This document shows, one piece after another, positions 12,062 to 61,743 of a DNA stretch of 64,000 bases. The translations under genes were made by a program, and so were the position numbers. Source of the stretch: Branchiostoma floridae (taxonomy: Eukaryota; Chordata; Leptocardii; Amphioxiformes; Branchiostomatidae); contig NC_049979.1 of the NCBI RefSeq assembly GCF_000003815.2, positions 4,359,293 through 4,423,292 of the forward strand, given 5' to 3'. The notes beneath the pieces are model-generated. The model was not told where the DNA came from. It did no database searches and saw only the letters and a program-made list of their open reading frames with translations. Each line of letters starts with the position of its first letter. The first letter of the stretch is position 1.

Positions 12062-12177
12062 GGGATGCGCGCGCGCGGCCATCATATTAACGTTGAGAAG
12101 AGCGCACTAGAAAATGAAAGGGATGCGCGCGCGCGGCCATCATATTAACGTTGAGAAGAGCGCACTAGAAAATGAAA
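12062..12177. repeat. perfect 58-bp direct duplication
   Basis: The 58 bases starting gggatgcgcgcgcgcggcca occur twice back to back (12062-12119 and 12120-12177) with no difference seen. Each copy has a (GC)n core. This is a recent duplication, or possibly an assembly artefact. Confidence 0.93.
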
Positions 12178-12299
12178 GCGTTACTCCGCAGTTACATATT
12201 CCGATATTGTGAACCAATACTCAGATTACCACATTATCAACGCGCTCAATAACGGTAATGAGCAGTTACCAGGGATATGCAAAATAACGGGTATGCCAG

Positions 12300-26127: not shown

Positions 26128-26291
26128 TCACAGGGCGGCAAGTCCAAAGTTGCACCTGGCTACATTCATGCTGGGTCCAGGTGCCCAGCTGTCCTCCACG
26201 GGGTCGTACTGCAGCACCTGTTGCAGGTACGATGACCCTGAGTGACCCCCTGCTACGTACAGGTGGCCGTTCAGTACTGCAACACCAAGTC
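26128..26291 (-). CDS. KLHL28: KLHL28 terminal coding exon (Kelch blade 6, stop)
   Basis: The acceptor gtccccag precedes GACTTGG, and the split glycine codon (G|GA) joins exon 4. It encodes the last blade (LYVAGGHSGSSYL) and the ending RCNFGLAAL, then TGA at 26130-26128. Confidence 0.92.
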
Positions 26292-29200
26292 CTGGGGACA
26301 GGAACAAATCATCATCATTATCATTTGTCATCCTCACGATGATGTGGAACAAGTGAAGTTTGACTTCCAGTAAAGTCTGCCATTCATCGCTGCGAGGAGT
26401 TCCGGACCGTCCAGTCCAGCTTCTAACTCAATAAGCTTCTTCAAAGTTAGCCTTGGGTGACCAACACATTTCTTACAGAAAACAGGCGTCCAGAACAAGA
26501 GTTTTCTGGCTGGCTCAAACAGGAACAAAAAGGTTTCCCATTCACCCCCAGAGTGTGCAAAAATATGCATATAACGAATTCTTGCATTCGACAAATGTCA
26601 GAAATCAACATACAGCTCAGTGTGACATCTGTGAGTACTTGACTAGTAAAACTTATATAGTTGTCTCGTGTTACTGGCCACACTGCTTACCTGTACTGGG
26701 TGTCTCCATGGGTGTGCAGGAGGCCCACTGGTCACTGTACGGGTCATACCTCTCGATGGTGTTGAGGTGCTGCATGCCGTTGTGTCCCCCCACCACAAAC
26801 AGATACCCGTGTGTCACGCCCACGCCGAAGTTGATCCTCTTGTCGGCCATGGGTGCCACAAACTCCCAGCTGTCTTCAGTGGGGTTGTACCTTTCCACAC
26901 TACAAACATAACATTACATTATACAGCTGTCTTCAGTTGGGTTGTACCTTTCCACAATACAAACATAACATTACATTATATCAGCTGTCTTCAGTTGGGT
27001 TGTACCTTTCCACACTACAAACATAACATTACATTATATCAGCTGTCTTCAGTAGGGTTGTACCTCTCCACACTACAAACATAACATTACATTATATCAG
27101 CTGTCTTCAGTTGGGTTGTACGTACCTCTCCACACTACAAACATAACATTACATTATATCAGCTGTCTTCAGTAGGGTTGTACCTCTCCACACTACAAAC
27201 ATAACATTACATTATATCAGCTGTCTTCAGTAGGGTTGTACCTCTCCACACTACAAACATAACATTACATTATATCAGCTGTCTTCAGTAGGGTTGTACC
27301 TCTCCACACTACAAACATAACATTACATTATATCAGCTGTCTTCAGTAGGGTTGTACCTCTCCATACTACAAACATAACATAACATTATATCAGCTGTCT
27401 TCAGTAGGGTTGTACCTCTCCACACTACAAACATAACATTACATTATATCAGCTGTCTTCAGTAGGGTTGTACCTCTCCACACTACAAACATAACATTAC
27501 ATTATATCAGCTGTCTTCAGTAGGGTTGTACCTCTCCACACTACAAACATAACATTACATTATATCAGCTGTCTTCAGTAGGGTTGTACCTCTCCACACT
27601 ACAAACATAACATAACATTATATCAGCTGTCTTCAGTAGGGTTGTACCTCTCCACACTACAAACATAACATTACATTATAACAGCTGTCTTCAGTAGGGC
27701 TGTACCTCTCCACACTACAAACATTACATCACATTACATCAGAAAATTCCTAGTACACATCCAAATGTTCTTTTCCTGGCCAGCACTTCAGCTGAGTTTC
27801 TTCCACCCAATGTTAATGTTAATCGAGGTTAACAGACAGTTAAGTCATTGTAGCATAACCATCATATATACATGGGTTTTGACTGTAGAAATTCCTACTA
27901 GTAAATAAGTAAATGAAATACAACTTTAGTAGCATATTGAGCCATACTGGCCAAATACAAAGACAGGGCAACTTGAGTGTGCCTAAAAATACATCATGCC
28001 TGGGTGTAACCATTGATGAATCACCAGGTATAGAATCCAAGCCCAATAGCTGTCAATGTTTGTTTACACTGCTACTCCTGGTTGCATTCATTGACCCAGA
28101 TCCTACCTGCCACACTTTCAATGGATTGTGATGAAAAGCAAAAGTCCAAAACATCTTTTCACTGATCAGGACTACAACTTGCATGTTTGCAAAATTTATG
28201 CCGAGTAAAACCAGGTAAGGCCTGGGAAAAAAATGTGGTGTTTCCTGTTTCAGTCCAGAAAAAATTAGGGTCGTAGGAAGGGATTATCTTTTTGTTCTTG
28301 TAATTTTTCAGGCTGGCCAAAATTCTAGTGATACATACATGTATACAATAGAGTTGAACAAAGTAAATCGAAATGCACGAGGACACTTGTCTTTTAATGT
28401 CAAACTTTTATTCTGTGCATGGTGGATAGTTATACATTTATCCTTCAATAGACAGGACAAGCAGTGTTTTTACTTCAATGGGAAGCAGGCTGAATAAAAA
28501 TTCTAACTGGAAGCTATGTGACTCCACTGCCCACCCACCAAAAAAAAGTCTGGGGTTGGCAGGTTTTTCTAGGGTAGGTAGGGAAACAGGAAACACAAAA
28601 TTTTTTTCCTGGGCCTAAGTATGCAGTCCTCACCTGTCCAGATGTGTGGGCCCGTACCCTCCGATGGCGAAGATTGCTCCGTTAGCAGCAGCTGCAGCAA
28701 AACAGCTCCGTGGCTTCAGCATGTGCGACATCTCCTCCCAACTGTTTGTCCGCGGGCTGTACCGTTCTACCGTGCTGAGGTACCGCTCGCCGTTGTACCC
28801 CCCGAGTGCATAGATGTACCCCCCATGCACGGTGACCGTGAGGGAGCTGCGGCAGTGGTTCATGGGTGCTATGGACGTCCAGCTGTTGGTGGTGGGGTCC
28901 CAGCACGACACGGAGTTGGAGTGGATGTGGTGCGTCTCCCCGTTCTGTGGAATGCAGGTGATCCCGCCGAACACGAACAGCCTGTTGTCTGCGACCGCCG
29001 TGGCACAGTTGTATCGCTGGTGGTTGAGAGGCGACACCTCGGTCCACGTGTTGCTCTCGGGAAAGTACACCTCGACACTGGTGAGAGAGAAAGGTCCCAT
29101 TCAGTAACAGGTTTCAATGTTGTCAGCAACTTCATGTGACTTTTCTTGCACATACTTCTTTAGCTGATTGATATAACAGGTGACAGTATGCTAGTATTGA

Positions 29201-32190
29201 AGGCAAAGTATCACTCAAAGACATTTTGACTTGACAAAGAAATGATACAATATGCAAAATAATACACCTCTACATTGTACCTTCATTTCATGGTCTTTGG
29301 TTTATTATGTTACTACTAATTTGTAGGAACAATTACGACTCATTATTCAAATGAAATCTATTTTTGTCGCAAAGATATTTTAGACTTCCTTTCCAAGTGG
29401 CACCATAGCAACATATATTTATCCACTTCTGAAATGTTAGTTCTTTGATACACAATTTGTCCTTTCATTCCCATTATCCAAAATGGTAAAAGATGAAAGA
29501 GTCTAGTGAATCTGTGTTTCATCACCCCTCTGGTCTTACCACATCGGTCCCTCATACATGCCCCTGGAGGAAGCCTGAACAGGTGGTTATGGCAGGGATG
29601 TGTGATCCCACAGGCCTACAGGGACTACAACAGGCAGAAACATGCAGATGGCATGACACCTATTTCAATATCTTTGTGGTCACAGATCATTAACACAAGG
29701 GGCGTACAGTCAAACCTGTATTAGGGGCCACCTCTACAGAGGGGCCACCTGTCCATAATGGCCACTTTTTGTCGGTCCCTTGGGTATTTTATCTACAAGT
29801 TACCACCTCTATACAGAGGCCACCTGTCTATAGTGGCCAAATTTGTCCGGTCCCTTGACTGGCCCCTATAGACAGGTTTGACTGTACTAGTACCTGTGTG
29901 TAGTATAGAATGTAGCTAGAAACTGTCTGTAAAAGCATGGCTTTACATCGGCTTAGCACTGATTATACTCATTCCATGCCAAACACAAGTGGCTCTAAGA
30001 TTAACAGTTCGGGGTAGGGGTGGGTACCGGTACAGAAAATTCAGGTCCAGGTCCAGTTCAGGTCCAAAGGATCAGGTCCAGGTCCGGACCTGAACCTGGA
30101 CCTGATGCAGTATGACTCATACTAATGGTCCATTTCACTACAAAGAAATCTGTTTGGTGGAGTATTAGACTTACTCTGGCGTTTTAAAATCATACAACGC
30201 TAACTGCACCTGTACGATTGGCTGTGAAACTTGGTAGAAATTACTATAAACTTTACTCTATTTCACTCTTGTTATTTTCTTCCACCTGCAAGCCCCAAAA
30301 CGTGTGAATGCCTGATAAAATAATCTGTTGATTTTCTAATCGGTCCAACATCCGGTCCACCTAATTTTTTCAGGTCCGGTTTTTATGGACCGGTCCAATA
30401 AGAAAAATCGGGTTTGTACCAGTGCGCTGTACCGATACCCAGCCCTAGTCTGGGGACCATGTTCAATGTAAATCTAATCTTTAGTATGCCCTTATTGACT
30501 GTATGAGATGTGTGACCCAAGGACATTCAAGCTAATAGTAATACAGCAGAGGAAAAAGAACATTCTGGGGCTTGAAACCTAGCACAGTCATTGTTCCAAT
30601 TTTCAGTTACAATGTTTTTAATTGACTGTAAGAACTGAAATTCAATTGTCATTTGCTTTGTCAAATGCCTGCAAAGCTGAGATGTATTATGGCAAAAGGG
30701 TTTAAAGTTATTAGTTGATCAATTAAGATTCACACTGCTGAATGTGTATGCTACAAGTTTTCCCCATCTGCACAAGCGCAGAATCACAAGCCCAGAATCT
30801 TATTCCACTGGCTACTAGAACTCACCTGTTTAATGTGGCAAAAAGCCCATTCTTCCCCCCCACAGCACACAGGACTTTAGGCGGACACCTTGGTCGTGCA
30901 GTGGTCTGCTGTTCTGTATCATCATCATCCAGCGAGCGCAGCCGGAGCTCGGGAACCAGGTGATACTTCAGGGCATCGTTCAGCAGGTGTTGTGCGGTGG
31001 GGTCCTCTCGCACCAGCGGGTTGGCTTCGTAGCAGCGGGTTAGGAACTTGACGGGTAGCAGCGGGAGACGAATGCACCTCAGCAGTTTGGACAGGTAGCA
31101 CCGGCGGTTTGCATAGTCAAAGTAGATCCACCTTTCCACAGCCTCAAACACCGACTCCTCTGACACGACATTCAGGTTGTCGTTGGACAAAAGGTCCAGA
31201 ATCTCGGACGCAGTCAGCAGGAAGAACTCCTCTGACTTGGACACATCTTCAAAGTGTCTGCAGATGTAGTTATAGGCCTGAGTATACAGCTTGAAGCAGG
31301 CGTGCAGCTGGGCAAAACGGGCCACGCCGATGCAGTTGTGTGGGTGGAGCGCAGACTGCAGAAAATCACAGCACTGCCTGATGACCTGTTCTATCTGGAA
31401 CAGACTGGCCGCGGGCAGCAGCATCTGCACGTTGGCGTCCGTCACGGCCACTGTGCCCGTGTAGGCAAAGTCAATCAGCAGCATCATAGCAGTTTCATCA
31501 ATACAGTGGAACTCCACTTCATCCTGGTCGCGTTCACACAGGTTCCCGGTGAACATGGCCTTGAAATAGGGAGAGCAGCTCGCAAGGACGACCCTGTGGG
31601 CAGATCAAATAAACCAAACATCCCTAAAATATACCTATTAAGTATCATATATACACAATGTCACATATACTTAGTACTACACATACATACACGTGTATGT
31701 GCATGTTATCTTCATGTGCAATTACATTATCATGTCTGGCTTCCTCTGATGGGGAGATTAACATCATTGCGGCAAACTTTCCTGTTACTTGTTTAGGGTG
31801 ATTTGCTATGACAGTTCTGGGCATGAGCCCATACATATTGCAATGATAAACATGAAATTGACACCAGCAAAATTATAATTGAGTCCAACTCAACAAACAA
31901 GGTAAATCAGTGAGACTTCCATTAGCCAGTCTTACCACTGACTGGGATAAATAAACTACGATAACACCGAATTCAGTTTATGGCTTGACATTATTTATAA
32001 TCTGAAAGCTATCATAATTTGTTTCGGGCATTGGAAAGCTGGATGTTTACCTGTGAACATGGAACTTCCTCTCGCCCACCCTCAGCACCACATCGCACAA
32101 CTCTTGCCGCTGTCGCAGCTCGTTCAGTCCGTGCAGGAGCTGTTCGGAGTATGTGGACGTCCCCACGGTTCCTCCTGACAAGCTGTCCAT
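26128..32190 (-). CDS. KLHL28: KLHL28, BTB-BACK-Kelch protein, complete, 5 coding exons
   Basis: Coding exons on the minus strand are 32190-32051, 31593-30826, 29077-28634, 26899-26691 and 26291-26128. All junctions are GT-AG; splice phases are 2,2,2,1. The joined length is 1725 nt, or 574 residues plus TGA, against about 571 for human KLHL28. BTB lies at about residues 20-125 (core HRVVLASCSPYFKAMF), BACK at about 130-240, and six Kelch blades fill the C-terminal half, each with a GG pair and a Y/W pair. The KLHL28-type ending RCNFGLAAL is present. Family knowledge: BTB-BACK proteins bind CUL3 while the Kelch propeller recruits substrates; KLHL28 substrates are poorly defined. The start is the first in-frame ATG (MDSLSGG). 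An open stretch upstream of it lacks an ATG and may be 5' UTR. The gene stands head to head with TOGARAM1, as in vertebrates. No break is seen. Confidence 0.93.
26691..26899 (-). CDS. KLHL28: KLHL28 coding exon 4 (Kelch blades 4-5)
   Basis: The acceptor gtttgtag precedes TGTGGAAAGG, reading SVERYNPTEDSWEFVAPM. The exon ends METPSTG with donor G|gtaagc. Its acceptor and first 31 or so bases are the founder unit of the neighbouring 58-bp tandem array. Confidence 0.92.
26868..27741. repeat. 58-bp tandem array, 15 copies, carrying the KLHL28 exon 4 acceptor
   Basis: Copies begin at 26868, 26925, 26983, 27041, 27099, 27161, 27219, 27277, 27335, 27393, 27451, 27509, 27567, 27625 and 27683. The period is 58 bp, except one step of 57 and one of 62. 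The first copy overlaps exon 4. On the minus strand each unit holds the 3' splice site gtttgtag and the first 30 or so exon bases. Copies near the exon read GAAAGG and distal ones GAGAGG, so the array expanded from a variant unit. Confidence 0.95.
28216..28618. mobile_element. MITE in KLHL28 intron 3
   Basis: Inverted ends of about 33 bp (aggcctgggaaaaaaatgtg) are visible. The interior matches 57210-57608 in reverse orientation. It ends 16 bp before the exon 3 donor side at 28634. Confidence 0.8.
28634..29077 (-). CDS. KLHL28: KLHL28 coding exon 3 (Kelch blades 1-4 in part)
   Basis: The acceptor ctcaccag precedes TGTCGAGG, giving the Kelch motif SVEVYFPESNTW. The exon carries three complete blade motifs and ends GGYGPTHLD with donor AG|gtgagg. 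Blade 2 has the long loop between FVFGGI and SVSCWDP that is also seen in vertebrate KLHL28. A long antisense frame across this exon is a shadow of its codon bias. Confidence 0.93.
29705..29886. mobile_element. short MITE in KLHL28 intron 2
   Basis: The ends tacagtcaaacctgt and acaggtttgactgta are inverted repeats. The interior repeats ggccacctgt and tagtggcca. Confidence 0.75.
30013..30448. mobile_element. MITE-like element in KLHL28 intron 2
   Basis: The ends gtaggggtgggtaccggtac and, on the other strand, ctagggctgggtatcggtac pair. The interior has clustered aggtccaggtcc and ggtccgg motifs. Confidence 0.65.
30826..31593 (-). CDS. KLHL28: KLHL28 coding exon 2 (rest of BTB, BACK, first Kelch strand)
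   Basis: The acceptor cccacag precedes GGTCGTCC, which restores the R-VVLASCSPYF motif across the junction. The 768-nt exon holds most of the BTB fold, the whole BACK domain (CIRLPLLPVKFLTRCYEAN is visible near its end) and the PKVLCAVGGKNGLFATLN opening of the propeller. The donor is AG|gtgagt. Confidence 0.93.
32051..32190 (-). CDS. KLHL28: KLHL28 coding exon 1 (BTB start)
   Basis: This exon encodes the first 46 residues plus two bases, ending FHVH and AG|gtaaac. The motif SEQLLHGLNELRQRQELCD is the typical N-terminal helix and first strand of this subfamily. A candidate acceptor (ccgcag) at 32306-32307 would make 32191-32305 an untranslated leader; the same frame has a TAA just beyond it. 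Confidence 0.9.
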
Positions 32191-34233: not shown

Positions 34234-34351
34234 GAAATTTCCAGGACAAATGTGAAAGTCTAATCCTCCAGGACCAAAAGATGTGACCATCACAGGTGGG
34301 CAGTACTACCTGTGATCTGCTCCTGGGTGATGTGGAGGGAAGCTCGTTTTG

Positions 34352-36352
34352 ATGGCTGGCACCGTCGCCAAGTTCGCTCCCTATGCTAACTTACACGATG
34401 AGTTTGTGGTGAGACAGACTAGCATGGAGGAGGAGGACCTTGTCCTCAACTTGTTGGATGATGAAAGTTTTGCAAAACGCACTCAGGCGCTCGACTACCT
34501 ACGTGTAGCGGTGCGCAAGAATGGAGGACGGCTGGTGTTCCACAACAGGCAGGGTCTGTTCAACGGTTTGGCCAACCTGCTACAGGACTCCAACTGGAAT
34601 GTCCGACACCAGTGTATACAGTTGATCTCTGAGATGATCCCAGGCTTCGGGCCAGGGCTGGATACTGGGATGGCGGCTGTCCTGCCAAATATTGTGTTTA
34701 ACATCGGCGACACAAAGGTGGCCATAAAGAAGTCTGCTATTCAGACTGTTCACCTCTACCTGAAGCATTCGTTGGACCGAAAACTCATTTTCAATGCACT
34801 GGTAAAACATGGGTTAGAGAATGAGGATCCGCGGATTGGAAGAGAAACTGTAGTGGCTCTCCCAATGATGCTGACACCGGAGTTTGCTAAGGAAGATTTG
34901 TTTCCATTGACGCTGGCCTTGGCCAGGAAGCTTCACAGTAGACCAGATGAAGACCCCAAGAAGATTCTTTACTCAATGGACAGAATACGGTCGTTAGTGG
35001 GAGACAACAAGTTTGAGATGTGGGTCTCCAAGTTCCCAACTAATCTTCAGGGGACCTACCACAATGCATATGACCCTGAACGTAATGGCTTTGACACACC
35101 AAAGCACGATTCCGTCAAGTCTGCCAAGTACGAGTCTCCCAGCAGGGAGAGTAGAGAAGTGGACTTGAATTCCAGCGGACATTTCAAGGACTTTCCCAAC
35201 AGATACCAGGTAACCTCCACACGTGAGACAAACCATGCGAGACCAATGGTTGCACATAGATTGGTATCTCATGATGATGGGCCATATGAATTTGGCATCA
35301 TTCCTTCTCATGTCATGCAACAGTTGGTCGACCAGGAGGATTGGCGCATTCGGGCACAGGGAATCGAACAGTTGAAGAACATTATGGCCAGTCTAAGAGA
35401 CGCTACTCCCTTGTTACCTCAGCTGCTGCCCTTTATCAGCTTTCTCTGTAACTTGCTGGATGATGTCAACTTTAAAATCACCACTGTGACACTAGAAATA
35501 TTTGGGTTGTTGGTGGACAAGTTGAACCTTGGTGTAAAACCTTACTTAAAGCCCATTGTGTCAGCTTTGACGAAGCGGCTGGGCGACCTAAAATACGTGA
35601 TCAAGCAGGAAAACTTGCGGGTTCTGATGCAGCTCATGAATATCCTGAGCCCGAAGCCCATCCTCATGCATTTGTATGACGGCTTGGAGCACAAGAACTC
35701 TCGTGTCAGGGAGGAAACATTGAATGTCATCATTGCTTCCTTGTTGACTTTTCCAACCTATGAGTTCGACCTGGGTCATCTGTGTGAAATTATAGCCCCA
35801 ACATTAGCTGATGCCAAGCCAAGAGTTCGCCAGGCTGCGTTAGAGGCCTTCGCTGTTCTGGCCCAGTCCATGGGTCCAGGCCGGCTACAGCCGCTGGTGT
35901 CAGCGGTGGACAGTGTGGAGTTGGGAAAGGACGGGGACGGAGTCATGGCCGCCGTTCAGGCGCGGCTCGCGAGAAGACAGCTGCCCAGACTGGGCACGGA
36001 CGGGTTGGTGGAGTACGCCACACCCCCACCCGCCTCGGCACGGTCCCGCAGCAGTACCGGATCCTCTGCACAGGCCCACCAAGGGGCAGACACGGAGTGG
36101 ATCCTCAACGCGCCGGGGGCACAGGGGAGCAGTTCCAGCGCAAGAGACAGGCCGGAGTCGGAAGACTTCCTGTCTCGCTCCACACCTGGTCCCCTTCCCA
36201 CAGGTGGCATCGACGGGATCACGCCACAGCCGCGCCGCTACTTCAGCGCCGGGAGGGCTCGCAACAAACTTCCGTGGGAGGAGGGAAGAGGTGATAAAGA
36301 GGAGGAAGGAAACTTCCACAGCAGCCATCCCAGCAGTGCACCTGCCACTCAG
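34352..36352 (+). CDS. TOGARAM1: TOGARAM1 coding exon 1 (TOG1, TOG2, linker)
   Basis: This exon has 667 uninterrupted codons, MAGTVAKFAPY to PATQ, with donor CAG|gtgagc in phase 0. TOG2 begins near YEFGIIPSHVMQQLVDQEDW and ends near RRQLPRLGTDGLVEYA. The large single exon carrying both N-terminal TOG domains resembles the vertebrate gene. Reading on past the donor adds a hydrophobic tail and a stop at 36431, which I take as intron. Confidence 0.95.
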
Positions 36353-39300
36353 GTGAGCAACATGTTTCTCTTAATGCTGTTTACTTGTATTGCTACATCT
36401 TATTTACAAACAGCCCAAGGAAAACTTGTATAAACAACTTGGTGTATCAGGCAGCCATGCACGCTTCACAGTTTGTCAGCAAGGTCACAGTGGGTTTTAG
36501 CTTGGTTGTTAACCTCATCGTCCTTTACTAGATTGTGCTGTTTATATGAATGTCAGTGTAAATGCAGCCTGTTGAACCATGGTTGCTGACACTAGCCTGC
36601 TGAAGTCCATGCCTCTCCTGGAATGCAGTTCCCTGATAGAGTGTGAAATTCCATGGAAACATTACACCTCATTTGAAATCCAAACCAGGACAAATTGTTA
36701 GGCTTTGGCAGTTATGTCCTGGACAACAGCCTGCTGATTGATGTAATGCTAATGGGAGGGGAACTGGGATCACCAACAAGTGTGCAGTTATACATATGGG
36801 AAACATTCTTTATGGTCCTCCTTAAATATTCATGCGTCTTACTTTGTTTCAAGGGCAAAACCAGCTTATTATTGTTATTGATATATGGTGATGAGGCTCC
36901 TCTATAAATACTTTATAAACTTTAAGGTGATGTCAGGGCTCGAAATTAACATAGTCCCGTAGGCCCGGGGCACCAACAATTTAGGCCGGGAACACTAGAA
37001 AATCACTTTGGGACCATTTTTGGGACGAAAGATAATCAACATTAGAATGTAAACCCCATCAGTGTTCGAAATACCCGTCTGCAATCTGCAATTTGCATGT
37101 TACAAGTACTGTTAATGCATAAATGTTCGCGTTGGATTTATGTTCGCGGTTTTCGCGTCGGCCATTTCACCACCGCGAACATTTTTCCAGGGCATTAAGA
37201 TACTACAGTGCATGGTGCTACCGCGCAATTAAAACCACCACGAAAAGTCCTTTTTCCCGCTACCGCGAAATTAAATACCCGCGAACTTAAATGCATTTAC
37301 AGTATACAGAAATTTTGTACTCTGAGTCTGACTCAACATTATATTTATTGTTGTATTACATACTTCCTACTTGGGACCATCCATCCTCACTTCGGGACGA
37401 TTGGAATTTATTTTTGGGAACACTTTGGGACAGTAGGGGAAAAAGTTAATTTCGAGGCCTGGATGTGTGTATATACATGTAATATAATGTAACTCCCTCA
37501 GAGTGTAGTCAGGGTATATTGATAAACAACAATACATGTAAGTCCCTTAGAGTGTAGTCAGGGTATATTGATAAACAACAGTACATGTAAGATACTTAGA
37601 GTGTAGTCAGGGTATATTGATAAACAACAGTACATGTAAGATCCTTAGAGTATAGTCAGGGTATATTGATAAACAACAATACATGTATCAAATGCCTGGG
37701 ATTGCTGATTAACACAAAGAGACTGATTGATAACAGTTACTTTTAGTCAGGTGTGGACTTGTCAGGCACGATCTTGTTAGGAATTACCATGTTCTCTGTT
37801 GTAGTGTTTTTTGGCATGTTTACTTAACTTGATTGAGCAGACTTGGCTGGAAGCTTTGAAGTTCTGCCTAAGCTGACCAAGAGTAGTCGGTTCATAACAA
37901 GTTGCATATTTTCACATAAGTGAAAATCAATGTGGTATGAATGGTGCAGACTGGAGCCCCTTTGTTTGATCCTGCTTTGTTACTTTTTTTTCTGTTCTGG
38001 CATGCAGATCAATGTAGTATAAAACCTGCCAGTATTAAAGGCCTGACAATGAACAGTTCTAGTCAGCAGGGTTGCAGTGGTATGTAGACGTTACATGGCG
38101 TATACAAGACAGAAAGCTCCCTACCCCTGCTTGTCGTGTTGCCATGACGTCCTACGCACACATTGTAACTTGTTGACCCATTAGAATATTGACATGGACG
38201 AAATATGCGAGCGTGATCAAACACAGTGTTTGTGGAGGGAGATTTTCTGGCACACCTAGATGTCAAGGTCATGCAACCTGCGTTTGACAGGCAAATTTGT
38301 CATATAGTAAAATAGTCAGTGATACGCATCTTTAACAAACAGCGAGGGAAGATGTCAGCACAGATCTAGTTGAAAGATTGAGAGGTGCTGTCATCAAATA
38401 TGGATTGTTCAAATTAGAACTGGCAATACACTTTTGTTTCCCGTGCTCCATGTCAGCGCTCTTATCATGGCAAACGCAATTTATCGGGAGTGTTTGCTTC
38501 AGGAAAGTGCTTGAAATACCAGAGCGTATGTCTGTTTGCTCCTTTCATAATGTAATTGAACAAACAGCTACAATGTTGCAATAGAAAGCAAACATGTATG
38601 AATTAAAAAAACAAACTTAACGTCATTGTGTTTGAGAATTGATGCATTTTGAACCGCATGAAATGTCAAGATTTATAATGTCCGATATTCCCCTTTCAAG
38701 TTGAGGTAAACTAAAAGCAGCTAACAGAAAATGGTTGTATATAAAGGCAAACATAAAGGCATGTTTGCAATTTACTCTTCAGTTTAAAAAAGTCATGAAA
38801 GCAAGTAAGGAGGAAAAATTAAAATCTATTGAACAACTTACTAAAATTTTTGGCACATACATGATACAGGAATTGCAGCTAAAATTGCCAGGCCTTAGGT
38901 GCACCAACCTGTGAGTTGTGTGTGGGATACTTATGTTAATTTGCATTCTGCTTGCTGTTTAACACCATAACCAATACAAGTTTAGTGCGTAGTGGCTACC
39001 TAACAACTTAAACAAGGCCTGTTACTGAGTGTTAGGAATATATATACGAATTGTTTCATGTTATATTGTCTCGACAGTGTTGTAGGGACAAGCAAGGTAA
39101 AGCTGCAACAGCTGATATATGAATTATCAGATTCATACAGACCATTCATACACATATACTGAACTGAACTGAACTGGATACACCACCCTACGTGCAGACA
39201 GACACGGCCCAGGCTGCCGCTCTGTAGTTAGGATGTTTATATTTTGGGTTCTTTGGATTTCTTCTGACCGGAGTAAGGCCTGGCTAACCCCTGGTGGGTC

Positions 39301-60300: not shown

Positions 60301-61743
60301 TAAGGACTAGACTTCAGCTCCCAGGCAAGTATGTAATGCTAGTTCACCTTTATCTGTGGAGTAACATTTATCCGTTGCTTTTGAAAATAGGGTATTCAGA
60401 GACATTGAGTCGAAGGACGGTGGTTTCAAATTGCAACATTTTGAAAATATTGCAGTCTGAAAGTATAATTCGTCAAATTGGTATCCCTAAATGCCTTGTT
60501 TTGAAATGCAATGGATATAGGTTATCCTACGGATAAAGGTGGACTAGCGTTATATAAAGAAAGCATGATGTATTAATGTATCTATAGCGTGGTTCAGGTG
60601 TACATGTGAGACTTAAGATTCAGATTTATAGGTAGATGGGTGGCAGTGTATGCATATAGAATTTTGGTGCACTTCATTTTTTAGATGCCAGCTCCCCTTC
60701 ATAGCTTTTCCAAATTAACGCTAGTTCACCTTTAGTTCAACCTATGTCCGTTGTACAAAATGTATATAGAAGACATTTAGGGATATCCAGTCGATGAACA
60801 GTGGTTGCGCACTTCAGTATTAAAAAAAAAATATTACAAGTTGAAACCACCGTCCGTCGATTTGCAACTTGATATCCCTGGATTTTTAATACAATGGATA
60901 CAGGTGAACTAGCGTTATAGTCTTTGGGGCCTTTTTGTCTTGAGATGAATTCATTTGGAAAGAGAAGGCCAGGGAAAGAAGTAGGGATGCAGGGAAGAAT
61001 AAGATGTTTACTTTCCATATTATGTATGCTGGGTTTGCCATATGGAAACACAAAGACAGGTAAATTACAGACTGAGGACCCATACATATGATATGGTTGT
61101 AGATTGGATATACATATACTATAGACCCAGCAGCTGTAGGCTAGGTGACAGTGTTAAGTTGATTTATGTCTCTGCAAACCATTTCAGCCACAAGCAATAT
61201 GCTTCTTTGTGTTGGATGTTGGGCATTTTCCTGGAATGTTCGGGTTGTATGAAATGAGCTATCAGGTTGTGTGAAGTGAGTTTTTAGGTTGTATGAAATG
61301 AGCTATCAGGTTGTGTGAAGTGAGTTTTCAGGTTGTATGAAATGAGCTTTCAGGTTGTGTGAAGTGAGTTTTCAGGTTGTATGAAATGAGTTTTCAGGTT
61401 GTGTGAAGTGATTTTTCAGGTTGTATGAAATGAGCTATCAGGTTGTATGAAGTGAGCTTTCAGGTTGTGTGAAGCGAGTTTTTAGGTTGTATGAAGTGAG
61501 CTTTCAGGTTGTGTGAAGTGATTTTTCAGGTTGTATGAAATGAACATCTGACCACAGCTGTGTGCCTTCCCTCCTCCCCAGGATCCCAGCCATCGGGCTC
61601 CTACAAGAAGGAGTATCTTAAGAAGCTGGAGTACAATGCCCGTGTGGCCACCCTGTCTGGATCCCATCCCCGCGGGCGTGTGGTGCCGCTTGAGCAGGAC
61701 TCCGCACCCTCCAGCGCCACCGCCACACCAGCCTCAGACAAAG
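34352..61743 (+). CDS. TOGARAM1: TOGARAM1 (crescerin-1), 5' part; gene continues past the right edge
   Basis: Visible coding exons are 34352-36352, 59161-59308 and 61582-61743. They give about 770 residues, against about 1,720 in the human protein. The first exon holds TOG1 (about residues 20-240) and TOG2 (about 310-555), both made of paired HEAT-like helices, then a Ser/Pro-rich linker with the family motif SAGRARNKLPWEE near residue 630. The pair ADTEWIL and LPWEE match vertebrate TOGARAM1. Family knowledge: its TOG domains bind tubulin and shape ciliary axoneme length; human mutations cause a Joubert-type ciliopathy. The start is the first ATG after an in-frame TGA at 34328. TOG3 and TOG4 must lie outside the window. 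Intron 1 is 22.8 kb and repeat-rich. Confidence 0.93.
36934..37461. mobile_element. CAGGGCTCGAAA-ended element carrying a nested MITE
   Basis: The ends CAGGGCTCGAAATTAAC and its near-complement are flanked by gatgt. The TTCGCGG MITE at 37107-37304 is inserted within it. It lies in TOGARAM1 intron 1. Confidence 0.75.
37107..37304. mobile_element. TTCGCGG-family MITE, nested
   Basis: Runs from tactgttaatgcataaatg to aaatgcatttacagta. It is inserted into the element at 36934-37461. It is opposite in orientation to the copy at 428-641. Confidence 0.8.
37493..37690. repeat. 49-bp tandem repeat, 4 copies (TOGARAM1 intron 1)
   Basis: The motif agagtgtagtcagggtatat recurs at 37500, 37549, 37598 and 37647, an exact 49-bp step. 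Copies differ at only a few positions. Confidence 0.93.
39839..40673. mobile_element. element with ggctattgacacacc ends
   Basis: ggctattgacacacc (39839) and ggtgtgtcaatagcc (40659) are perfect inverted ends about 835 bp apart. A near-palindromic solo pair of the same end sits just outside at 39803-39833. The interior holds the tRNA-like fragment at 40045. Confidence 0.65.
40045..40112 (+). mobile_element. tRNA-like Pol III promoter fragment
   Basis: An A-box-like tggcgtagtgga (40045) and a B-box-like gattcgagtcc (40098) are 53 bp apart, followed by T-runs. The acceptor ends do not pair, so it is not a functional tRNA. It may be a SINE head inside the larger element at 39839-40673. Confidence 0.4.
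41413..41773. mobile_element. PIF/Harbinger-like MITE, TAA target duplication
   Basis: The ends GGCACTATCTACACACAG and, on the other strand, GGCCCAATCTACACACAG are flanked by taa on both sides (41410-41412, 41774-41776). A 3-bp TWA duplication is the hallmark of PIF/Harbinger. Confidence 0.8.
46086..46250. repeat. interspersed repeat, copy 1
   Basis: Shares catatagccagg, gtggaccaatcagaagg, agcaaaggaccagg and gggtcattaacccttaatta with 57664-58025, where the middle part is inverted and longer. Class unknown. Confidence 0.6.
47055..47330. mobile_element. fragment related to the octamer-bearing element
   Basis: ttaattatgcaaat with an inverted atttgcataat, then gcagttccaaaattaaatgt and agggggcccaaacctgcccc, resemble 22500-22830. 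Confidence 0.55.
50563..50718. mobile_element. palindromic acctgcac element, near-perfect 8-bp duplication
   Basis: The ends read CAGGGCTCAAAATACA and, on the other strand, CAGCGCTCGAAATACC. The flanks gattaagt and ggttaagt match at 7 of 8. The interior is built from repeated tacctgcac and its complement. Confidence 0.75.
51336..51490. mobile_element. TTCGCGG-family MITE
   Basis: The ends agtactgtaaaattaatgca and its near-complement are well preserved. The interior has lost several CpG sites relative to the other copies. Confidence 0.75.
52425..53020 (-). mobile_element. truncated PIF/Harbinger-like element with possible transposase fragment
   Basis: The left end (gacgcgatctacacacag after taa) and about 230 bp match the MITE at 41413-41773. 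No matching right end is seen. On the minus strand, 53018-52707 is open for 103 codons, with an Arg-rich stretch, a hydrophobic AFFLAALIVAE helix and FWDLLLRPY, reminiscent of animal Harbinger transposase N-termini. I did not compare it to a profile. Confidence 0.45.
53264..53394. mobile_element. 131-bp MITE
   Basis: ttagcctgagtacca and tggtactcaggctaa are perfect inverted ends. Inner arms tcaatactttcgct and agcgaaagtattga also pair, so the whole element can fold into one hairpin. Confidence 0.75.
53827..54520. mobile_element. palindromic acctgcac element interrupted by a SINE
   Basis: This is the same family as 50563-50718, in the opposite orientation. It starts CAGGGCTCAAAATACC and ends tcaggccctg. 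The SINE at 53910-54296 splits it, and about 130 bp of other sequence lies in its right part. Confidence 0.7.
53910..54296 (+). mobile_element. tRNA-derived SINE nested in a palindromic element
   Basis: An A box (tggcacgatcgg, 53924) and B box (ggttcaaatcc, 53968) are 44 bp apart, the canonical tRNA spacing. The flanking acctgcac (53902-53909 and 54297-54304) is a duplicated target. Removing the insert restores the host element seen intact at 50563-50718. Confidence 0.85.
56138..56230. mobile_element. partial TTCGCGG-family MITE
   Basis: Only the left half is present (ttactgtaaaatttgatgca onward), with CpGs mostly decayed to TG or CA. It is a degraded copy. Confidence 0.5.
57210..57608. mobile_element. 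MITE in TOGARAM1 intron 1
   Basis: Second copy of the 28216-28618 family, with ends aggcctaggaaaaaaatgtt and complement. The two genes thus carry sister insertions. Confidence 0.8.
57664..58025. repeat. interspersed repeat, copy 2
   Basis: Longer relative of 46086-46250; the cctggtcctttgctataacc stretch is inverted relative to copy 1, as expected for an element with inverted ends. Confidence 0.6.
58710..59032. mobile_element. CAGGG-ended MITE with tatgc flanks
   Basis: The inverted ends CAGGGTTGGACAAGT are flanked by tatgc on both sides. The interior repeats acttgcccga. The 5-bp duplication differs from the 8-bp hAT-like copies. Confidence 0.75.
59161..59308 (+). CDS. TOGARAM1: TOGARAM1 coding exon 2 (linker)
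   Basis: The acceptor ctgcccag follows a pyrimidine tract, and phase 0 continues exon 1 as VPRPKQEMQPPIKPKNTWGF. It ends DDSPNS plus one base with donor G|gtgaga. The 49 codons are rich in Lys, Arg, Gly and Asp, as expected for the disordered linker between TOG2 and TOG3. Identification rests on phase, codon-like composition and position. Confidence 0.8.
59370..59713. mobile_element. hAT-like MITE in TOGARAM1 intron 2, 8-bp target duplication
   Basis: The ends CAGGGTTGTAGCCAGC are a perfect 16-bp inverted repeat, and caaggggc flanks both sides (59362-59369, 59714-59721). It is the same family as 25306-25635, inserted 61 bp after the exon 2 donor. Confidence 0.88.
60334..60552. mobile_element. 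MITE in TOGARAM1 intron 2, copy 1
   Basis: taatgctagttcaccttt and a near-complementary aaaggtggactagcgttat form the ends. The interior contains ggacggtggtttcaaattgc. A 112-codon open frame across it is a by-product of the repeat. Confidence 0.7.
60716..60918. mobile_element. MITE in TOGARAM1 intron 2, copy 2
   Basis: taacgctagttcacc and ggtgaactagcgtta are perfect ends. It is the same family as copy 1, 163 bp away. Confidence 0.75.
61242..61545. repeat. 22-bp minisatellite before TOGARAM1 exon 3
   Basis: About 14 copies of aggttgtatgaaatgagcta (plus tc) lie here. Two sub-types (tatgaaatgag and tgtgaagtgag) largely alternate, suggesting a 44-bp higher-order unit. The array stops about 37 bp from the exon 3 acceptor, so it may overlap the branch-point zone. 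Confidence 0.93.
61582..61743 (+). CDS. TOGARAM1: TOGARAM1 coding exon 3 (linker)
   Basis: The acceptor cctccccag joins in phase 1 to make GSQPSGSYKKEYLKKLEYN. The 162-nt exon ends PASDK plus one base with donor AAAG|gtattt, so it is symmetric (phase 1-1) and could be skipped without a frameshift. A 22-bp minisatellite ends about 37 bp before its acceptor. Confidence 0.8.

Follow-up and report, generated by a model that had tools for sequence, protein, structure and literature searches.

Tandem arrays that cross splice boundaries are already known in lancelets, where they are called 'mirages'. They have been described in the Adh3, globin and troponin C genes (PMC3087553), and PGBD5 was added to the cases in a second report, which in the sections cited here discusses the splicing of the PGBD5 repeats without an RNA test (PMC3902484). 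The Adh3 data and RT-PCR of a globin gene are said, in the same sections, to suggest regular splicing (PMC3087553, PMC3902484), and the Adh and troponin C mirages are stated there to generate no aberrant mRNAs (PMC3902484). The human interferon-induced gene 6-16, or IFI6 (G1P3), carries a minisatellite with multiple splice donor sites (as cited in PMC2572611), and the Rogers model derives intron gain from tandem duplication of AG/GT proto-splice sites (cited in PMC3087553). The amphioxus VCBP genes have partial exons with splice sites in their introns, and their cDNAs include unusual or prematurely stopped splice products. Duplicated exon pieces can therefore reach mRNA, as far as the part of that report used here goes (PMC2632668).

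Here we describe an array at the boundary of intron 3 and exon 4 of a gene, most likely KLHL28, in Branchiostoma floridae. The window is the whole stretch of 64,000 nucleotides that was analysed (contig NC_049979.1, positions 4,359,293 to 4,423,292 of the forward strand). KLHL28 is absent from the described mirages, and no earlier report of its array was found in the literature searched, the coverage of which leaves out most subscription journals. The array is very probably an amphioxus-type mirage minisatellite, with splicing presumably kept to the authentic acceptor.

The host gene was reconstructed from five minus-strand exons that join in frame to give 574 residues. These, the intron with the array and the neighbouring gene are as follows.

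32051 to 32190, minus strand: coding part of exon 1, start of BTB (in-frame splice, Pfam).
30826 to 31593, minus strand: exon 2, remainder of BTB and BACK (in-frame splice, Pfam).
28634 to 29077, minus strand: exon 3, Kelch motifs, ending CTG GAC AG/GTGAGG (Pfam, in-frame splice).
26900 to 28633, minus strand: intron 3, phase 2, with 14 decoy units at its 3' end (exon reconstruction).
26691 to 26899, minus strand: exon 4, 209 nt (in-frame splice, Pfam).
26128 to 26291, minus strand: exon 5, the last coding exon, Kelch (in-frame splice, Pfam).
34331 to 36433, plus strand: neighbouring gene, whose open reading frame encodes a TOG-domain protein with FAM179B, or TOGARAM1, as its best PDB match (5dn7, E 1e-74).

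Pfam matches to BTB, BACK and Kelch motifs give the predicted protein a BTB-BACK-Kelch architecture, and among the best 60 of 201 PDB matches, the top ones other than designed proteins are KEAP1 and KLHL20 chains. We take the product to resemble human KLHL28. The first-pass annotation had already called the gene KLHL28, and this is most likely what it is. The name is well supported by position, since TOGARAM1 (FAM179B) adjoins the Kelch gene, as in mammals; KLHL28 and TOGARAM1 are adjacent in the portion of a goat gene list consulted (PMC9902602).

Tandem Repeats Finder (TRF) places a minisatellite at 26867-27742 with a period of 58, 15.1 copies, 96% matches and a score of 1597, against a best array score of 52 when the window was resampled 20 times with a first-order Markov model. 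Read on the minus strand, the unit consists of 28 nt of intron end followed by 30 nt of exon 4 start, with the consensus CTGATATAATGTAATGTTATGTTTGTAG (28 nt, intron end) and then TGTGGAGAGGTACAACCCTACTGAAGACAG (30 nt, exon start). The spacing of units is 58 nt, and once 62. This bears out the first-pass annotation in its account of a 58-bp unit of acceptor and exon start repeated 15 times, and its first exon base, 26899, agrees with the minus-strand reading. The tandem repeat spans the exon-intron boundary with a single authentic copy at the exon, and of the 15 acceptors the one at exon 4 is alone in continuing the conserved frame. A DNA search of the genome (513,431,437 bases in 431 contigs, very common words skipped) found no second site for the array. 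A 30-base probe from the unit, allowed up to three mismatches, matched 14 places, every one inside the array; the copy missing from these matches is the one with an insertion, copy 5. The array and the copies that are singled out below are as follows.

26867 to 27742, minus strand: 58-bp minisatellite of 15 units across the intron 3/exon 4 acceptor (TRF and unit alignment).
26956 to 26958, minus strand: copy 2, the nearest decoy, its acceptor dinucleotide being AT instead of AG, immediately before exon-like base 26956 (unit alignment).
27118 to 27125, minus strand: copy 5, GTACGTAC, a 4-bp tandem insertion whose extra GTAC makes a donor-like GAG/GTACGT and a frameshift (unit alignment).
27685 to 27742, minus strand: copy 15, the outermost and most diverged unit, with an intron-side CTG in common with the exon break point (unit alignment).

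Like the mirages of Adh3, the globins BflGb6 and BflGb9, troponin C and PGBD5, the KLHL28 array is a boundary-crossing tandem duplication with many AG/GT copies, and like the BflGb6 mirage, compared by its published description, it has homogenised inner units with the edges excluded (both from the cited sections of PMC3087553 and PMC3902484). It differs from the described mirages in its gene, its 58-bp unit and its 15 copies, and also in a nearest decoy that lacks AG, in the closing of every decoy by a stop and in the CTG common to the inferred break points. With the Rogers model it shares a duplicated boundary whose every unit holds an AG as well as a GT-like site, but the host intron pre-existed and no new intron was formed. 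IFI6 is also an intragenic minisatellite that repeats a splice signal; its repeats hold donors, whereas those of KLHL28 hold acceptors, known here from genomic sequence alone. The donors of the IFI6 minisatellite are reportedly used in mRNA.

The authentic acceptor reads TGTTTGTAG/T GTG GAA AGG TAC AAC CCC ACT GAA GAC AGC TGG on the minus strand. The first-pass annotation had counted about 15 near-identical acceptors. That picture stands for the 13 of the 14 upstream decoys that keep the AG, but it missed the AT of the nearest one, copy 2. Between -20 and +3, 10 of the 14 decoys are identical to the authentic site. When spliced to exon 3, all 14 hit an early stop, the outcome already foreseen for decoy splicing. 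The GAC AGC TGG of the gene becomes GAC AGC TGA in 11 of the 14, which puts a count on what had been noted for most upstream copies. The other three end in a later TAG (copy 15), in a TGA after the frameshift (copy 5) and in the TAA that had been pointed out soon after the start of copy 2. The closing TGA looks like a by-product of the join and not a design, since the CTG of the exon meets the ATA of the intron at the duplication junction. By the usual distance rule, the decoy products would be subject to nonsense-mediated decay, since each decoy exon would extend for over 200 nt from its stop to the exon 4/5 junction. Exon 4 is 209 nt long with the authentic acceptor versus at least 324 nt with the usable decoys; the 324-nt form, from the next usable decoy, would stop early. 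At the start of 13 of the 14 decoys is CTGAT, a branch-point-like motif; the authentic copy instead has CTGTAT.

By its local sequence the authentic site has no advantage, because the decoys match it on paper. What sets the authentic acceptor apart is its closeness to the exon 4 donor. We infer that exon definition would pair that donor with the nearest usable acceptor, and since it would favour the nearest, splicing would be expected to keep to the authentic site. The extra copies would be tolerated because they are located on the intron side, and any decoy use would be low-level noise ending in nonsense-mediated decay. Pure first-AG scanning would predict decoy use, since the decoys are no worse on paper and 13 of the 14 have CTGAT. 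The CTGAT of the decoys, the AG loss in the nearest of them and the splice products of the VCBP genes count against the mirage reading.

The units show little variation, and seven of the 15 are identical. Differences from the consensus are most numerous in copies 15, 2 and 1 (4, 3 and 3 positions, respectively), followed by copies 3 and 9 with two each and copies 14, 13 and 5 with one each, the insertion of copy 5 not being counted. The copies are thus nearly identical, with a homogenised middle and diverged edges, although the inner copy 9 differs at two positions, the same as copy 3. In the authentic copy, the exon part matches the consensus except at two third-codon positions, and the intron part is one base short. 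Once the 4-bp insertion of copy 5 had been removed, the 14 decoys together vary at 7 of their 392 intron-like positions, as against 7 of the 420 exon-like ones (Fisher p = 1). Such equal variation of the splice-signal and exon-like parts is what is expected of neutral minisatellite turnover. Retention of the AG is likewise what chance gives, with 0.48 losses expected and one seen. The sole AG lost is that of the nearest competitor, for which the chance is 1 in 14, and this could hint at selection. Selection on the decoys in general was considered and rejected, the variation in the two parts being equal and the AG losses being at the chance level.

The first-pass annotation had proposed a copy-number-tuned splicing switch, in which part of the splicing goes to the decoys and the copy number sets how much KLHL28 mRNA is sent to nonsense-mediated decay. 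In its favour, 13 of the 14 decoys keep the AG, 10 of the 14 match the authentic site at every position between -20 and +3, and every decoy leads to an early stop that lies over 200 nt ahead of the exon 4/5 junction. But the decoy signals are without constraint (7/392 versus 7/420, with AG losses at the chance level), the nearest decoy is dead, comparable arrays are found at other genes of the genome (see below), and the published mirages are said, in the sections cited, not to disturb splicing (PMC3087553, PMC3902484). We consider the switch very unlikely. Equal variation, chance retention of the AG and similar arrays elsewhere leave it without support from the sequence, although it is unsupported rather than refuted. 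A further elaboration, to which we give a similarly slight chance, is a heritable rheostat of variable copy number. In it, 13 decoys would each divert a small share of pre-mRNA to nonsense-mediated decay, array length, even somatic, would tune the dosage of KLHL28, and selection would have begun killing the nearest decoy.

As to the origin of the mirage, the array was probably seeded by one tandem duplication of 58 bp across the intron 3/exon 4 boundary, with subsequent expansion by slippage or unequal exchange, after which the middle units would have been homogenised. A CTG is common to the exon (CAG-CTG-GGAG) and the upstream intron (TTTT-CTG-ATGTAATG), and the usual unit junction is CAG-CTG-ATATAATG. 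With a chance of about 0.05, by a simple model, for at least three shared bases at the break points, this 3-bp micro-homology is suggestive only. The recency of the spread can be bounded from a mutation rate of 5.89e-9 per base per generation and an effective size of about 1.7 million, as given in the part of the source used (PMC12862219). At that rate the identity of seven units puts their spread in the last 1.25 million generations or so, which is below 2Ne, though gene conversion could make this estimate misleading. With the spread so dated, the copy number is probably still segregating, and the age bound suggests length polymorphism or somatic instability of the array.

Two other explanations touch on the individual units. 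The array could be an assembly artefact, or its copy number could be wrong in the reference; one published globin mirage appeared aberrantly assembled in the draft genome (PMC3087553). Several of the KLHL28 units are marked individually by substitutions or the insertion, the array is at one genomic place only, and like structures are found at other loci, so that we hold an artefact to be highly improbable; the copy number in the reference, above all of the seven identical units, may nevertheless be off. Alternatively, the array might be a cradle of a new intron or micro-exon, from which decoy exon pieces would be recruited later by way of the donor-like GAG/GTAC site. A 9-nt piece, TGTGGAGAG, would keep the frame and insert S-V-E, the donor-like GAG/GTACGT is already present in copy 5, and a recruitment model has been published for the globin mirages (PMC3087553, in part). 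The present units are closed by stops, however, and the improved donor is in only one copy, and such a role is highly improbable.

We asked how common such arrays are at exon edges in this genome. A Kelch_1 profile search gave 150 scored matches of 844 candidates. The first 30 loci were taken, and these merge into 22 stretches (76,474 bases), one of which is the gene in the window. TRF was run on 30 of the 30 loci; only L025 and L018 were compared with exon edges, with L013, L017, L020, L023 and others left out, and the survey of boundaries, much of it done by eye, is a lower bound. An acceptor-spanning duplication is present in at least two of the 21 merged Kelch stretches other than the window gene.

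L025:298-1548 (G000 C15:16742756-16745881): 72-bp array at a Kelch gene, with 18 copies of the acceptor, the single authentic one included (exon assigned to Kelch by Pfam).
L018:2156-2281 (G000 C7:13157944-13161075), minus strand: 62-bp acceptor duplication in two copies, located upstream of a Kelch match; a stop closes the extra copy.

The units of L025 are spaced by 72 bp, with two exceptions of 51 and 70, and its last five decoys read open in frame into the exon. Since 72 is divisible by three, each unit included by a slip there would make the Kelch blade 24 residues longer. The exon of L018 looks, by eye, like the end of a BACK domain, and the duplication there would be a nascent mirage. 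A genome search for globins placed nine matches.

For background, we used 20 random stretches of 190,254 bases without N (the first 20 of 60 drawn from 10 contigs). They contain 35 arrays with a period of at least 15, of which the 13 with at least three copies cover 3.8% of the sample, so that overlap of arrays with exon edges is to be expected often. These 35 and the 12 arrays of the window yielded 314 open pieces at the edges of the 47 arrays; for L034 and L036-L038, edge pieces were considered at 35 residues or more. Nine edge pieces were compared with Pfam, seven of them without a match, including those of L034 and L047, and two (one shortened) with the PDB, where L047 had no match and L034 matched aminopeptidase N at 9e-10.

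L047:9289-9625 (G000 C3:22297332-22307331): 168-bp duplication in two copies, likely covering an exon end and the GT donor that follows it (no Pfam or PDB match for the exon).
L034:8775-9532 (G000 C3:5157995-5167994): 51-bp array of 15 copies, reaching from the final codons and the stop codon of an aminopeptidase N gene into the 3' flank (PDB 9e-10, no Pfam match).

A third candidate, the 194-bp intron duplication in two copies at L043:4084-4460, was rejected as a mirage, since 5 nt lie between its end and the acceptor of the exon, which is ecdysteroid-kinase-like. Two other repeats of the window can be recorded here. At 61239-61543 is a 22-bp minisatellite of 14 copies, several units of which read TTTCAG/GTT; some 40 nt separate its end from the acceptor of a possible exon, starting near 61582, that has no Pfam match. 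At 12062-12178 is a 58-bp duplication without mismatches, which includes a stretch where C and G alternate.

Arrays at coding edges, at splice sites or not, are not rare. This is compatible with minisatellites that arise at random and persist when their additional copies come to lie to the non-coding side of the edge. The survey points to mirages being no rarity in this genome, which matters for gene annotation and for models of intron gain. The KLHL28 locus itself is a natural test of acceptor choice, setting distance to the exon 4 donor against the first AG, with 13 competing acceptors of which 10 are identical to the authentic one over -20 to +3. The L025 array offers the matched contrast, in which slips would lengthen the Kelch blade instead of running into a stop.
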